DNA of 57,468 bases, from assembly GCA_902533585.1 (NCBI GenBank), contig CACAMG010000003.1, positions 1 through 57,468 of the forward strand, read 5' to 3'. Below, piece by piece: positions 49,893 through 56,878 of this stretch; the stretch's first letter is position 1, and each line of letters begins with the position of its first letter. Source of the DNA: an uncultured Pelagibacteraceae bacterium. GTDB taxonomy: Bacteria; Pseudomonadota; Alphaproteobacteria; Pelagibacterales; Pelagibacteraceae. The notes under the pieces are model-generated. The model made no database searches and was not told where the DNA came from. It saw only the letters and a program-made list of their open reading frames with translations. Both the position numbers and the translations under genes were made by a program.

Positions 49893-51254
49893 ATGTCTGA
49901 CAAAATCAAATTTTTTCTAGAAGAAAATAAAATGCCAAAAACTTGGTATAATATTGCGGCAGATCTTCCAAAACCTCTTTCTCCAGTACTTCATCCCGGA
50001 ACACTTAAACCGGTTGGACCAGATGATTTAGCCCCCTTGTTTCCAATGGCACTTATAGGACAAGAAGTTTCTCAAGAAAGAGAGATTGAAATTCCTGAAC
50101 CCGTTAGAGAAATATATAAACAATGGAGACCTTCTCCACTTTATAGAGCAAGAAAATTAGAAAAAGCATTAGATACTCCGGCTAAAATTTATTATAAATA
50201 TGAAGGTGTAAGTCCAACAGGTAGTCATAAACCAAATACAGCTGTAGCCCAAGCTTTCTACAATAAAGAAGAAGGAACGAAAAAAATTACAACCGAAACA
50301 GGTGCAGGGCAATGGGGAAGCTCACTTGCTTTTGCATGTTCAATTTTCAAAATCGAACTTGATGTATATATGGTTAAAGTTAGTTATGAACAAAAACCAT
50401 ATAGAAAAATGATTATGCAGACATTTGGTGCTAATTGCTATGCTAGTCCATCTAACCGAACTCCGACAGGTAAAGCAATTTTAGAAAAAGATCCAAATAA
50501 TTCAGGAAGTTTAGGTATAGCTATTTCTGAAGCAGTAGAAATGGCAGCACAAGATGAATCAACCAAATATTCTCTTGGTAGTGTTTTAAATCATGTATTA
50601 ATGCACCAAACCATAGTTGGAAATGAAGCAATAATGCAAATGGAAATGGCCGATGATTATCCAGATATATTAGTTGGATGCACAGGCGGTGGAAGTAATT
50701 TTTCTGGATTGGTATTTCCATTTCTTGGAAAAAAATTTAGAGAAAAAAAAGATGTTAAAGTAATTGCTTGTGAACCAAAATCTTGTCCTTCTTTAACAAA
50801 AGGTAAATTTGCATACGATTTTGGAGACACAGGAAATCGAACACCTTTAGTTAAAATGCATACTTTAGGTTCTTCTTTTATGCCACCATCAACTCATTCT
50901 GGCGGCTTAAGGTATCATGGTATGGCACCAATGGTGAGCCACCTTGTAGATATAGGAGTTATTGAAGCTAAAGCTTTTGGTCAAAAAGAATGCTTCGATG
51001 CGGGTGTAAAATTTGCAAATACCGAGGGAATTGTTCCGGCTCCTGAAGCTACTCATGCTGTAAAAGGAGCAATAGATGCAGCGCTCGAGTGTAAAAAAAA
51101 TGGAGAAAAGAAAACAATTCTTTTCAATTTGTGTGGTCACGGTCATTTTGATATGCAAGCTTACGGTGATTATTTTAATAACAAACTTTCCGATGATAAA
51201 TATAATGAGGCAGAAGTAAATTCAGCATTGGAAAAATTACCTAAAATTGCTTAA
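49893..51254 (+). CDS. Tryptophan synthase beta-like protein, TrpB2 type (PLP enzyme)
   Basis: RPSPLYRARKLEKALDTPAKIYYKYEGVSPTGSHKPNTAVAQAFYN (PLP Lys), TETGAGQWGSSLAFA, CTGGGSNFSG; N-terminal extension typical of TrpB2. Confidence 0.92.
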   Translation: MSDKIKFFLEENKMPKTWYNIAADLPKPLSPVLHPGTLKPVGPDDLAPLFPMALIGQEVSQEREIEIPEPVREIYKQWRPSPLYRARKLEKALDTPAKIYYKYEGVSPTGSHKPNTAVAQAFYNKEEGTKKITTETGAGQWGSSLAFACSIFKIELDVYMVKVSYEQKPYRKMIMQTFGANCYASPSNRTPTGKAILEKDPNNSGSLGIAISEAVEMAAQDESTKYSLGSVLNHVLMHQTIVGNEAIMQMEMADDYPDILVGCTGGGSNFSGLVFPFLGKKFREKKDVKVIACEPKSCPSLTKGKFAYDFGDTGNRTPLVKMHTLGSSFMPPSTHSGGLRYHGMAPMVSHLVDIGVIEAKAFGQKECFDAGVKFANTEGIVPAPEATHAVKGAIDAALECKKNGEKKTILFNLCGHGHFDMQAYGDYFNNKLSDDKYNEAEVNSALEKLPKIA

Positions 51255-51295: not shown

Positions 51296-52498
51296 ATGTA
51301 TTTTATAAATCCGTTTAAGGCTTTAAGACCTAAAAAAGAAAATGCTTCTTCAGTTACGATAGCAAGCACAGATCATTTATCTGAAGATATGCAAAAAAAT
51401 CATCTGAAGAAAAATCCGTGGAGCTATCTAAGTGTTTTTAATGCGGAAAATAAAAAAAAATCAAAAGAACAATTTGAATTAATGAAAGAAAAATCAATAA
51501 TAACAAAAGAAAAAAACTTTTCTTTTTATATTTATAGAATTTCTAAAGAAAACTTCAAACAAGTTGGAATAGTTGGAACTGCGAAATTATCTGCTTATGA
51601 TAATTTGCATATTCGAGGTCACGAAGAAATTTTTTTTGAAAGATCTCAAAAAAGAATGAAACAAATGGAAAATCTAAATGCACAAATAGGGCCTATATAT
51701 GCGGTTTATCCCGATAATAAAGAGCTTAATGATTTAATAGAAAATGAGTTACTTAGTTCCCCAATATATTCTTTTAAAGGCATGGATAGATGTAAGCATG
51801 AGATGTGGGTGATTGATGCAAAAAATAAAATTGAAAAAATTTCTGAATTATTTAATTCCATAAATAGAATTTATATTGCCGATGGTCATCACAGAATGGA
51901 AGCTTTGTTAAAACTTTCACAATTTAAACAACACCAAAACCCCAATCATACTGGCGAGGAAGCTTACAATTTTTTTATGATAGCAATTTTCCCCAAAAGT
52001 CAGGCAAGAATACTTGATTATAATAGACTTATAAAAGATTTATATGGTTATTCACCTAAAGATTTTATTAAAGAAATTAAAAAAAAATTTAAAGTGGAAA
52101 AACAAAGTTCTTCATTCAAACCAGAAAAATCACAAATATTTGGAATGTATTTAGAAAAACAATGGTATTCTTTAGAACTTAAAGAAAAACCTCATCAAAA
52201 TTTATTTCACATTATTAATTTAGATATAAATTTGTTACACTACTATTTGTTAGAACCTATTTTAGGAATCGGAGATCCAAGATATGACAATAGAATTGAT
52301 TTTATTGCAGGATTTCACGGTTTAGAAGGTATTGAAAAAAAAGTTAATTCTGGAGAAGCGAAAGTTGGTTTTGCATTATTTGCTACTCAGATGGAAGATA
52401 TAATAAATTTTGCAGATAAAAGGCTAACTATGCCACCAAAATCAACTTGGTTTGATCCAAAACCATTGGACGGTTTGGTCGCATATGAATTTGAATAA
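51296..52498 (+). CDS. DUF1015-family protein
   Basis: PFKALRPKKENASSVTIASTDHLSEDMQKNHLKKNPWSYLSV, YIADGHHRMEALLKL, KVGFALFATQMEDIINFADKRLTMPPKSTWFDPKPLDGLV. Confidence 0.9.
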   Translation: MYFINPFKALRPKKENASSVTIASTDHLSEDMQKNHLKKNPWSYLSVFNAENKKKSKEQFELMKEKSIITKEKNFSFYIYRISKENFKQVGIVGTAKLSAYDNLHIRGHEEIFFERSQKRMKQMENLNAQIGPIYAVYPDNKELNDLIENELLSSPIYSFKGMDRCKHEMWVIDAKNKIEKISELFNSINRIYIADGHHRMEALLKLSQFKQHQNPNHTGEEAYNFFMIAIFPKSQARILDYNRLIKDLYGYSPKDFIKEIKKKFKVEKQSSSFKPEKSQIFGMYLEKQWYSLELKEKPHQNLFHIINLDINLLHYYLLEPILGIGDPRYDNRIDFIAGFHGLEGIEKKVNSGEAKVGFALFATQMEDIINFADKRLTMPPKSTWFDPKPLDGLVAYEFE

Positions 52499-52557: not shown

Positions 52558-53712
52558 ATGGAAAAACCAACACTCAAACCACAGAACAACAATTTTTCAA
52601 GTGGACCATGCGCGAAACGTCCAGGCTGGAATATTGATGCTTTGAAAGAATCGCCAGTTGGAAGGTCACATAGATCTAAAGAGTGCAAAGATAAACTGAA
52701 TGAGGCAATAGTAAAATCAAAACAATTGTTAAAATTGCCAGATGATTATCTTTTAGGAATTATGCCAGGATCAAATACTGGTTCTTTGGAAGCGGCACTT
52801 TGGTCTTTATTAGGATCGAAGGGAGTTGATATTTTAGCTTGGGAGAATTTTGGAAAAGACTGGGTAACAGACGTAATTGATCAATTAAAAATCAAAAACG
52901 TAAATAGTCATATAGCTGATTACGGAAAACTTCCTGATTTAAGCAAAGTAAATTTTGACAATGATGTAATTTTTACATGGAATGGTACAACATCAGGAGT
53001 TAGAGTTCCTAACGCTAATTGGATATCAGAAGACAGAAAAGGATTAACTATTTGTGATGCTACTTCGGGTATTTTTGCAATGGAAATGGACTATAAAAAA
53101 CTTGATGTGATTACTTGGTCATGGCAAAAAGTTTTAGGTGGTGAAGCCTCACATGGCATGTTAGCTTTATCACCTCGAGCGGTTGAAAGATTAGAAACTT
53201 ATGTACCTGTTTGGCCAATTCCAAAACTATTTAGAATAGCAAATAAAAAAAAATTAATTAAAGGAATTTTTGAAGGAAGCACTATCAACACCCCTTCTAT
53301 GATTTGTGTTGAGGATGTTTTGGATGCTTTAAAGTGGGTAGATTCCATAGGTGGTTCAAAAGAACTAATAAAAATTTCAAACACAAACCTTAAAATAGTA
53401 GAAGAATGGGTAAATAAAAGTGAATGGATAAAATTTATGTGTGAAGATAAAAATTCAAGATCTGCTACTAGCATTACTCTTTCAATTAAAGACGAATGGT
53501 TTAATAATTTTGATGAAGAAAAACAAAGAGAAACAGTTAAAAAAATTGTTTCAACGCTCAAAAAAGAAGGAGTTGCTAATGATATCAATGGTTATGCTAA
53601 AGCTCCTCCTAGTCTTAGGATATGGGGTGGTGCAACAGTACAGAATAATGATATGAAAGCATTGCTGCCTTGGGTAGATTGGGCATATCATTTGGTAAAA
53701 AATAATGCCTAA
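52558..53712 (+). CDS. serC: Phosphoserine aminotransferase
   Basis: FSSGPCAKRPGWNIDAL, GIMPGSNTGSLEAALWSLLG, WSWQKVLGGEASHGMLALSPRAVERLE. Confidence 0.95.
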   Translation: MEKPTLKPQNNNFSSGPCAKRPGWNIDALKESPVGRSHRSKECKDKLNEAIVKSKQLLKLPDDYLLGIMPGSNTGSLEAALWSLLGSKGVDILAWENFGKDWVTDVIDQLKIKNVNSHIADYGKLPDLSKVNFDNDVIFTWNGTTSGVRVPNANWISEDRKGLTICDATSGIFAMEMDYKKLDVITWSWQKVLGGEASHGMLALSPRAVERLETYVPVWPIPKLFRIANKKKLIKGIFEGSTINTPSMICVEDVLDALKWVDSIGGSKELIKISNTNLKIVEEWVNKSEWIKFMCEDKNSRSATSITLSIKDEWFNNFDEEKQRETVKKIVSTLKKEGVANDINGYAKAPPSLRIWGGATVQNNDMKALLPWVDWAYHLVKNNA

Positions 53713-54640
53713 AGTTTTAATTTCAGATTCAATGAGCAAAGTTGCTCAAAAAATTTTTGAAAAAAATAATATTACAGTAGATGTAAAAACAGGTTTATCA
53801 GAAGACGAAATTGTTAAAATTATTCCAGAATACGATGGAATGGTTGTTAGATCAGCCACAAAAGTTACTAAAAAAATTATCGAAGCTGCAAAAAATTTAA
53901 AAGTAATAGGCAGAGCCGGTGCTGGCGTAGATAATATAGATGTGACAATCGCTAAAGAAAAAAATATGATTGTTATGAATACTCCTGGTGGAAATGCTAA
54001 CGCAACAGCAGAACATGCATTTGCATTAATAATGTCGGTTCTAAGAAAAATTCCTTTTTCAAATGATACAACTCATAAAGGGCAATGGGAGAAAAAAAAT
54101 ATTAAAGGTGCCGAGCTTTCAAAAAAAACATTAGGCATAGTAGGTTTTGGAAATGTAGGAGTAAGACTGAGTAAGCTTGTTAAAGGTTTTGACATGAAAA
54201 TATTGGTTAATTCAAAATCTCTAGAATCCAGAAAGAAAGATTACCCACATGTAGAAAATACAAGCTTTGAAGAATTGATAAGCAAGAGTGATATTATCAG
54301 CTTTCACTGTAAAGCCCCCAAGGATGGAATGCCGCTAATCACTAAAGAACATTACAAGAAAATGAAATCGACAGCTTATATAATTAATGCTGCAAGAGGT
54401 AATATTGTTGATGAAAAAGATTTAAATGATGCACTAAATGAAAATCTTATTGCCGGTGCTGCAGTAGATGTTTTTTCAAAAGAACCAGCTAAAGAAAATA
54501 TTCTATTTAACAATCCAAAAGTAATTTTAACTCCACATATAGCAGCATCAACAACTGAAGCTTCAATAGTGGTAGCTGAAATGGTTGCAAATCAGATATC
54601 AGATTTTCTATTAAAAGGCGTTAAGATTAATACTGTATAA
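53705..54640 (+). CDS. serA: D-3-phosphoglycerate dehydrogenase, short form without ASB/ACT domains
   Basis: VIGRAGAGVDNIDVTIAKEKNMIVMNTPGGNANATAEHAFALIMS, GIVGFGNVG, INAARGNIVDE, TPHIAASTTEA; ends at 311 aa. Confidence 0.9.
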   Translation: MPKVLISDSMSKVAQKIFEKNNITVDVKTGLSEDEIVKIIPEYDGMVVRSATKVTKKIIEAAKNLKVIGRAGAGVDNIDVTIAKEKNMIVMNTPGGNANATAEHAFALIMSVLRKIPFSNDTTHKGQWEKKNIKGAELSKKTLGIVGFGNVGVRLSKLVKGFDMKILVNSKSLESRKKDYPHVENTSFEELISKSDIISFHCKAPKDGMPLITKEHYKKMKSTAYIINAARGNIVDEKDLNDALNENLIAGAAVDVFSKEPAKENILFNNPKVILTPHIAASTTEASIVVAEMVANQISDFLLKGVKINTV

Positions 54641-54645
54641 ATTAA

Positions 54646-55924
54646 CTAAGCTTTTATCGTTGGTAGATAATAAAAATCAGCAGTATCTATTTTTGAGTAA
54701 TGCTGTCTTTTTGAACTCCATCTTTTACTAACACCAGCACTTGCAAGACTTAAAGTTGATCTACCATATTTATAGTTTGTATTATCAATAGATTTCATTA
54801 AATTATTTATTTTTTCATCTTTATCGCAAGAAAATAAATTTTTTTTACTAGTGGATTCTGATAGATGAGACAAAACTACTCCTGCTTTTTGATAACGGTA
54901 TCCATTTTTGAAAATAGTTTCCAAAGCATTAAGAGCTGATTTAACTATTTCAATACTGTTATTAGTTGCTATTGGAAAATCAATTGTTTTTGAATTTGAA
55001 TAAAAACCATAAAGATTTTGAAAAGGACTTGTTCTAACAAAAACAGTTATTGATTTTGCAACCAAAGATTCAGATCTAATTTTTTCTGAAGCATTTAATG
55101 AATACCCTGATATTGCTTCTCTTAGTTCTTGAAATTTTTCTACTTTTTGTCCAAATGAACGAGAGACAACACAACTTTTTCTTTTGGAGCTGATTGTTTC
55201 TAAACCAATGCAAGAAACACCTCTAAGCTCCATTGCTGTTCTTGAACTTAAAACATTAGCACTTTTTTTAATCCATGTGTTAGATTTATTTTTTAATTGT
55301 TTCGCATTATAAATTCCATTTTGATGATAAAATTTTGTTAATTGTTTACCAACTCCCCACACATCATTGATTTCTACTTTTTCTAGTATTGGGTCAATAT
55401 TTTCAATTCCTATTAAGCTAACAACACCAGATTGTTTTTTTTTTAGCAATATGGTTTGCGACTTTGCTTAATGTTTTAGTTTTTGCGATTCCAATACTTG
55501 TTGGTATGCCAGTCCATTTTAAAACTATGCTTCTAATTTCATGTCCTACATTTTCAATTTCATTGTCAGAGAAATTTGATAGATCTAAAAATGCCTCGTC
55601 AATTGAGTAAATTTCTATATCTGAATTGAAGCGTTTAAGAGTCCTCATAACTCTTCTTGATATATCTCCATATAAAGAATAGTTAGAAGAAAAAACCTGA
55701 ACACCATTTTTAACAATTATATCTTTTTCTTTAAAGTAAGGTTCGCCCATTTTAATACCTAAAGTTTTTGCTTCATTAGATCTAGATATGATGCAACCAT
55801 CATTGTTAGACAGAACCACGACAGGTTTTTTTCTAATTTTAGGATTAAATAACCTTTCACAAGAAACGTAAAAAGAATTACAATCTATCAAAGCTATTTT
55901 TTTAGTATATTGAGTGGATGACAT
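54646..55924 (-). CDS. umuC: DNA polymerase V subunit UmuC, split by a frameshift in an A10 tract
   Basis: N-part MSSTQYTKKIALIDCNSFYVSCERLFNPKIRKKPVVVLSNNDGCIISRSNEAK...SIDEAFLDLS...HIAKKK. C-part resumes KKKQSGVVSLIGIENIDPILEKVEINDVWGVGKQL. Confidence 0.92.
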
Positions 55925-56297
55925 AGGTTACAACTCCCCAGATAAAAACATCTTCTTCTTTATTAATTAAAATTCGATCTTCAAAATTTTTAGAACCAGA
56001 CGTTAAAAATTTTTTATCTTTGTCCTGAACAAAGCTTTTAACAACTAATTCGTCATGTACATTTGCAATTACTGTTGAAAAATTTTTAGGATTTAAACTT
56101 TTATCGACAACTAATAGATCACCATCATTGATTCCAATTTCAGTCATTGATTTGCCTTGTACTCTGATGATGAAAGTTGCTGGAACATTTTTGATTAAAT
56201 GAACATTTAGATCGATATCTTCTTCGAGATAGTCAGTAGCAGGTGAAGGAAAACCTGCTCCAGCTTTATGCAAATAATATGGCACTGTTAATTTCAT
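55902..56297 (-). CDS. umuD: UmuD-like S24 self-processing peptidase
   Basis: KAGAGFPSPATDYLEEDIDL cleavage region, IRVQGKSMTEIGINDGDLLVVD (catalytic Ser). Start at MKLTVPYY. Confidence 0.92.
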   Translation of the reverse strand: MKLTVPYYLHKAGAGFPSPATDYLEEDIDLNVHLIKNVPATFIIRVQGKSMTEIGINDGDLLVVDKSLNPKNFSTVIANVHDELVVKSFVQDKDKKFLTSGSKNFEDRILINKEEDVFIWGVVTYVIHSIY

Positions 56298-56301
56298 AAA
56301 T

Positions 56302-56316
56302 GTTCTTCTTTTGTTC
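56302..56316 (-). promoter_or_regulatory. Putative LexA operator (GAAC-N7-GAAC on the umuD coding strand)
   Basis: Plus strand GTTCTTCTTTTGTTC = GTTC-N7-GTTC, 4 nt upstream of the umuD ATG and downstream of a TTGACA -35-like element. Confidence 0.7.
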
Positions 56317-56467
56317 TCATTAATATACAAGTTGTTCAATAGTGTCAACCAGGTTGTATTTTGAGTCTGGAAGTGAATCAAAAGTGAATCAAAAAGAGAA
56401 CATTAAAACTATATTTTGTACTATTGTGGATAACTTTAACCAAAGGTAGTCTAACTCCATACCAAAT

Positions 56468-56878
56468 ATGAAAGAACTATCTCTTAAAGCAAGCTGTCTC
56501 TGTGGGGGTATACAACTAAAGACCAATGGACTTCATAGAAACATTCAAAACTGCCATTGTATTCAATGCATGAAAACCCATGGTAATTATGCAGCGTATA
56601 CAAATGTTGAAGAACAGAATATTAAATTTATAAAAAGCACAACATTAAAATGGTTTAGATCTTCAAAAAAAGCAAAGAGAGGTTTTTGTAGAAGATGTGG
56701 TGCAAGCATATTTTTTAAAATAATAGGAGCAAAAAATATTTCAATTGCCGCTGGAATGTTTAGCAAAACTATTAAACTTAAAACAATAGCGAATATATTT
56801 GTAAAAGGGAGAATGGACTACTATAAACTTGATAATCGTATACCAAAATTTAAACGTAATTCTAAAGGAGTAAATTGA
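56468..56878 (+). CDS. GFA/CENP-V family zinc-binding protein (first copy)
   Basis: ASCLCGGIQLKTNG, NCHCIQCMKTHGNYAAYT, KRGFCRRCGASIFFK. Confidence 0.92.
   Translation: MKELSLKASCLCGGIQLKTNGLHRNIQNCHCIQCMKTHGNYAAYTNVEEQNIKFIKSTTLKWFRSSKKAKRGFCRRCGASIFFKIIGAKNISIAAGMFSKTIKLKTIANIFVKGRMDYYKLDNRIPKFKRNSKGVN

Follow-up and report, generated by a model that had tools for sequence, protein, structure and literature searches.

DUF1015, a distant relative of free serine kinases, as a candidate replacement for the phosphoserine phosphatase SerB

We propose that DUF1015 proteins replace SerB, converting O-phosphoserine to serine on a serine-kinase fold, and on balance we favour this role over that of a serine kinase. 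The proposal builds on the predicted fold, motif conservation, the operon, co-occurrence with serC and the absence of SerB.

A DUF1015 gene in a serine operon

The window, a 57,468-nucleotide stretch from a SAR11-like assembly (838 kb, 67% complete), encodes a DUF1015 protein in an intact 400-aa frame with an ATG start. The product matches PF06245 over residues 4–300 at 255.8 bits (E = 6.4e-76), above the family's gathering cut-off of 25.8, and its residues 191–207 read RIYIADGHHRMEALLKL. The gene lies in a same-strand run in which trpB2 is followed after a 41-base gap by DUF1015, after a further 59 bases by serC and, with an 8-base overlap, by serA. The window serC matches TIGR01365 at 583 bits. 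For the 311-aa SerA the best match, at 334 bits, is TIGR01327, a phosphoglycerate dehydrogenase model with a cut-off of 454 that the score does not reach. The features of the locus are as follows.

49893–51254, plus strand: TrpB2, a TrpB-like PLP enzyme (TIGR01415), upstream of DUF1015; profile match
51296–52498, plus strand: DUF1015 (PF06245) protein, 400 aa, predicted free-serine-kinase fold, proposed SerB replacement; Pfam, AlphaFold2 model and Foldseek
51620–51625, plus strand: H109-E110, invariant, proposed counterpart of SerK H29-E30; motif and order, without superposition
51881–51895, plus strand: D196-G-H-H-R200 loop, counterpart of SerK D69-G-H-H-R73; alignments and hhalign
52430–52453, plus strand: M379-P-P-K-S-T-W-F386 C-terminal block, counterpart of SerK SPKTT (219–223); alignments and hhalign
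52558–53712, plus strand: serC, phosphoserine transaminase (TIGR01365), directly downstream of DUF1015; profile match
53705–54640, plus strand: serA, short form of phosphoglycerate dehydrogenase; profile match

Promoter and terminator scans gave signals no better than shuffle level. Elsewhere in the window, a umuC-like gene is split between two overlapping minus-strand frames (55418–55924 and 54646–55449), reflecting a frameshift or an assembly error, and adjoins a umuD-like gene (55902–56381). A SAR11_0636 sRNA (RF01827, 101.5 bits; 56352–56441, plus strand) lies between the umuD-like gene and a gene at 56468, which corroborates a SAR11 source for the DNA.

Fold and conserved residues

An AlphaFold2 model of DUF1015 built from 62 sequences reached a mean pLDDT of 93.1 and a pTM of 0.89. 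When this model was compared with the PDB by Foldseek, exactly nine chains matched at E<0.001 (E 1.7e-7 to 5.9e-6, probability 1.00). Five are the ADP-dependent free serine kinase SerK (TK0378; 5x0k, 5x0b, 5x0e, 5x0g and 5x0j), one is its Pyrococcus orthologue PF0380 (1vk1) and three are SbnI (6nr6, 5uje and 5ujd); the tenth match has a probability of 0.09. TM-scores normalised to the target are 0.50–0.58 at 10–13% identity, and on this model the kinship to SerK and SbnI is a distant, remodelled one.

Profile comparison agrees with the structural matches. Aligning the DUF1015 profile by hhalign with the SerK sequence as in the deposited chains recovered two colinear blocks, a C-terminal PKST block (score 39.9, E = 6e-5) and a DGHHR block (24.8). 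Among the controls, the top score was 29.6 for 200 shuffles of SerK and 23.1 for 110 unrelated ORFs, so that the DGHHR block alone exceeds all of the latter. Other searches added little: phmmer with a single DUF1015 sequence returned nothing useful from the PDB, profile searches of the PDB yielded only a sub-threshold match to 1vk1 (E = 0.17) that was lost with a wider alignment, and a viral fold library gave no match at E<0.001. From the model and from these alignments, we favour a distant kinship of DUF1015 with SerK and SbnI, the free serine kinases. The original prediction of an IADGHHR-type frame upstream of serC–serA is borne out by the intact frame, the gene order and the invariance of the motif. 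Its assignment to the ParB/sulfiredoxin-type fold that includes SerK and SbnI likewise stands, as the only significant structural neighbours are these two proteins and the structure comparison it called for did not reveal an unrelated fold.

The residues D196, G197, H198, H199 and R200 do not vary among 25 Pseudomonadota sequences with identities down to 28%, nor in an alignment of 62 sequences from many phyla, indicating that the motif does not reflect chance. Two more blocks, I/K..HE (H109, E110) and MPPK(S/T)TWF.PK (379–389), vary little or not at all. Such conservation of the H-E, DGHHR and PPKST blocks is as expected for a catalytic site. The H109-E110 pair, which falls outside every hhalign block, precedes DGHHR in the same order as H29-E30 in SerK, where the mutant structures 5x0j and 5x0e have Q or A in place of E30; from motif and order, we propose that the two pairs correspond.

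SerK is the best fold match, covering most of the chain, and shares with DUF1015 the DGHHR loop, the C-terminal (S/P)PK(T/S)T block and an H-E pair ahead of the loop. The two differ in that identity over the structural alignment is about 12%, DUF1015 has 400 aa with an extra N-terminal region against 242 aa in SerK, and DUF1015, unlike SerK, occurs mainly in bacteria without SerB. SbnI, a staphylococcal O-phospho-L-serine synthase and regulator, has the same fold (Foldseek E about 1e-6) but belongs to a siderophore pathway, is about 10% identical and has no association with serA–serC. With ParB CTPases and sulfiredoxin, DUF1015 has in common a G-x-x-R loop followed by a helix, and weak Pfam matches link some members to ParBc_2 (6 of 62) and DndB (1 of 62). 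However, no ParB or Srx structure appears among the Foldseek matches at E<0.001, Pfam finds neither the HTH nor the C-terminal dimerisation domain that would mark DUF1015 as a ParB CTPase, and the catalytic cysteine of the sulfiredoxin GCHR loop is absent, the loop reading DGHHR in all DUF1015 members.

The literature searched mentions DUF1015 by name only in passing, never in a title or abstract; the portion of a 2025 ParB-fold survey available to us places it (printed DU1015) among ParB-fold fusions and assigns it no role there. We regard DUF1015 as a variant form of the free-serine-kinase fold whose role is probably new, rather than as a proven serine kinase. EC 2.7.1.80 denotes a pyrophosphate:serine phosphotransferase activity, and there may be studies of ParB/Srx-type serine kinases that depend on pyrophosphate; if a DUF1015 member has already been characterised there, the novelty of our proposal is lower.

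Co-occurrence with serine genes and complementarity to SerB

Among 101 Pelagibacterales genomes, serC (TIGR01365) was found in 39 and DUF1015 in 42, with both in 38. The one serC genome in which DUF1015 went uncounted (G074) has the 3′ end of the gene at a contig edge beside serC; including this partial gene, all 39 serC-positive Pelagibacterales carry DUF1015. The four DUF1015 genomes without a serC match are G086, whose contig ends inside DUF1015, and G024, G038 and G058. Wherever a Pelagibacterales locus that was read spans the two genes, DUF1015 lies directly 5′ of serC.

This linkage extends to many phyla, with SerA and/or SerC within 4 kb in 33 of 80 DUF1015 loci, among them loci of Bacillota, Bacteroidota, Elusimicrobiota, Gemmatimonadota, Acidobacteriota and Pseudomonadota. 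Three types of SerC stand beside DUF1015: TIGR01365 in SAR11, another class-V aminotransferase in Clostridium, and TIGR01364 in Gemmatimonadota, Acidobacteriota and Desulfitobacterium. Adjacency to serA/serC, when mapped on the DUF1015 tree, requires a minimum of 14 changes, indicating that the pairing has been made or broken repeatedly. Speaking against a SerB replacement, the linkage is partial (41%), and the Gammaproteobacteria examined are unlinked.

Independent horizontal gains of DUF1015 within SAR11 were considered and rejected, as a branch with 99% support separates the Pelagibacterales forms, together with one other alphaproteobacterial sequence, from the rest; one old acquisition followed by fast divergence would be the simpler account of these sequences. 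Separately, a complete 0.9-Mb alphaproteobacterial genome (G281; L034/L070) carries a DUF1015 gene that falls inside a Bacteroidota clade of the tree and adjoins a choloylglycine-hydrolase-like gene; it was probably acquired by transfer.

The distribution of SerB is largely complementary to that of DUF1015 in Pseudomonadota. Scoring SerB as TIGR00338 over its cut-off, a count confined to this one family of phosphoserine phosphatases, we found it in only 1 of the 101 Pelagibacterales (G063). There the SerB contig (C34; L069, L031) carries an additional SerA-like gene that is longer than the first, reflecting either a recent gain or a stray contig. Across 299 Pseudomonadota, SerB is present in 8 of 43 DUF1015-positive genomes versus 232 of 256 DUF1015-negative ones (Fisher p = 3e-22, a value inflated because the test ignores shared ancestry). 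In a set of 50 DUF1015 genomes, most from other phyla, SerB occurs in two, both Bacteroidales. Seven of the eight Pseudomonadota with both genes belong to one family (f34; L036–L042, L072), and this family and the two Bacteroidales count against a SerB replacement. In three f34 genomes (G109, G117 and G192), SerB and DUF1015 lie within about 0.3–0.8 kb of each other. The phylum of Clostridium magnum has DUF1015 in 100 of 199 sampled genomes and SerB over the cut-off in none; SerB is absent there with or without DUF1015, so this absence is unspecific and uninformative for the contrast.

Serine prototrophy without a recognised SerB has been described. Dehalobacter lacks SerB yet grows independently of serine (PMC4751268), and C. 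perfringens does so with only low-confidence SerB candidates, an unexplained case (PMC7311316). In the order that includes a Desulfosporosinus MAG, 44 of 55 genomes carry DUF1015, and NCBI taxonomy places Dehalobacter in the same family as this MAG, Desulfitobacteriaceae.

Direction of the reaction

The regulation of clostridial operons bears on the direction of the reaction. A T-box (97.6–137.1 bits) precedes the serC–serA–DUF1015 operon in Clostridium magnum, Clostridium sp. cel8 and Lutispora, and by alignment to the Rfam consensus its specifier is UCC, a serine codon, in all three; comparison with the known glyQS layout also placed the specifier there. T-boxes activate expression in response to uncharged cognate tRNA. 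The operon should therefore be induced by serine shortage, as would be expected of a step that makes serine but not of a kinase that consumes it. Downstream of the main T-box and ahead of the aminotransferase gene lies a further T-box-like antiterminator element (Clostridium magnum L104, 1567–1688; L103, about 1740–1800), which possibly reflects tandem regulation. A glycine riboswitch upstream of COG4198 has been suggested (PMC2211319); none was found directly upstream of DUF1015 in the loci scanned.

In the window operon, SerA and SerC convert 3-phosphoglycerate to O-phosphoserine, from which DUF1015 would most likely remove the phosphate to give serine in place of the missing HAD-type SerB. 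By analogy with SerK, we expect phosphate or a nucleotide to bind at the DGHHR loop and E110 to act as acid/base. The phosphate may pass to water, energetically the most favourable outcome, or be transferred to AMP, ADP, phosphate or a similar acceptor; hydrolysis of phosphoserine is easier than phosphate transfer onto AMP or Pi. DUF1015 would thus catalyse the same reaction at the same pathway position as SerB on an unrelated fold: it has no HAD or TIGR00338 match, and its Foldseek matches are SerK and SbnI only. We infer the in vivo direction, the catalytic residues and the fate of the phosphate. Gene order, co-occurrence and the lack of SerB lend strong support to the original prediction of a role in serine or phosphoserine metabolism. 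The predicted kinase direction and dependence on a nucleotide or pyrophosphate find no support as stated; the serine T-box and the complementarity to SerB point to phosphoserine-to-serine conversion in most lineages.

An unlikely but serious alternative is that DUF1015 is itself a kinase of free serine, with ADP, ATP or PPi as donor, making O-phosphoserine from serine. The product would feed TrpB2, which condenses indole and phosphoserine to tryptophan, or would be taken to 3-phosphoglycerate through reversed SerC and SerA, as proposed for archaeal SerK. The fold matches serine kinases only, and every characterised matching member of the fold group is one, which also counts against a SerB replacement. 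SerK genes adjoin serA and an aminotransferase in Desulfurococcales (PMC5120207). In the window, TrpB2 lies directly upstream, and TrpB2 enzymes are reported to depend on O-phosphoserine (Busch 2014, as cited in PMC11917138). Three genomes of the Pelagibacter genus (G024, G038 and G058; L065, L067 and L066) have TrpB2–DUF1015 but lack serC and serA beside it, and serC is unmatched genome-wide, so that their phosphoserine would have to be made from serine. Their DUF1015 is shorter (364–367 aa) and divergent, lies directly behind trpB2 and keeps the motifs (ICDGHHR). Within the genus, all seven TrpB2-positive genomes have DUF1015, and 53 of the other 54 have neither. These loci may reveal use in the kinase direction and, with a phosphoserine-using TrpB2, keep a kinase under consideration. 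However, the clostridial T-box would turn a serine-consuming enzyme on during serine starvation, f2-type DUF1015–serC operons have no adjacent TrpB2, and a kinase leaves both the complementarity to SerB and SerB-free serine prototrophy unexplained.

A reversible enzyme would reconcile the T-box and TrpB2 evidence. DUF1015 might be an energy-conserving phosphotransferase that passes the phosphate of O-phosphoserine to AMP, ADP or Pi, a possibility we regard as doubtful. A SerK-fold enzyme run backwards would then complete serine synthesis in SAR11-like oceanic bacteria, Clostridia and other groups, and in the TrpB2–DUF1015 genomes without serC or serA the forward direction would supply phosphoserine.

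Two further roles can be weighed against the same data. That DUF1015 is a non-enzymatic regulator sensing serine or phosphoserine, with a separate unrecognised phosphatase replacing SerB, seems improbable: SbnI is titled a bifunctional transcriptional regulator/O-phospho-L-serine synthase in the PDB and some proteobacterial DUF1015 genes stand beside response regulator–Hpt genes, but a Pfam search found no DNA-binding domain and the H-E, DGHHR and PPKST blocks are conserved as for a catalytic site. In three such proteobacterial loci (L074, L075 and L083), DUF1015 directly follows the response regulator–Hpt gene, which takes the place of the serine genes. A substrate other than serine or phosphoserine, such as another amino acid or small phosphorylated molecule close to serine metabolism, with an indirect serC/serA link, would suit the many gammaproteobacterial loci with no serA/serC neighbour but is likewise improbable given the strict serC co-occurrence in Pelagibacterales, the convergent linkage in many phyla and the SerK/SbnI fold.

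Automated pathway tools flag the last step of serine synthesis as missing in organisms with no recognisable SerB. If DUF1015 does replace SerB, a widespread DUF family would gain a function, predicted serine auxotrophies would be corrected in abundant marine and anaerobic bacteria, and a serine-kinase fold would be seen to serve the opposite half-reaction.
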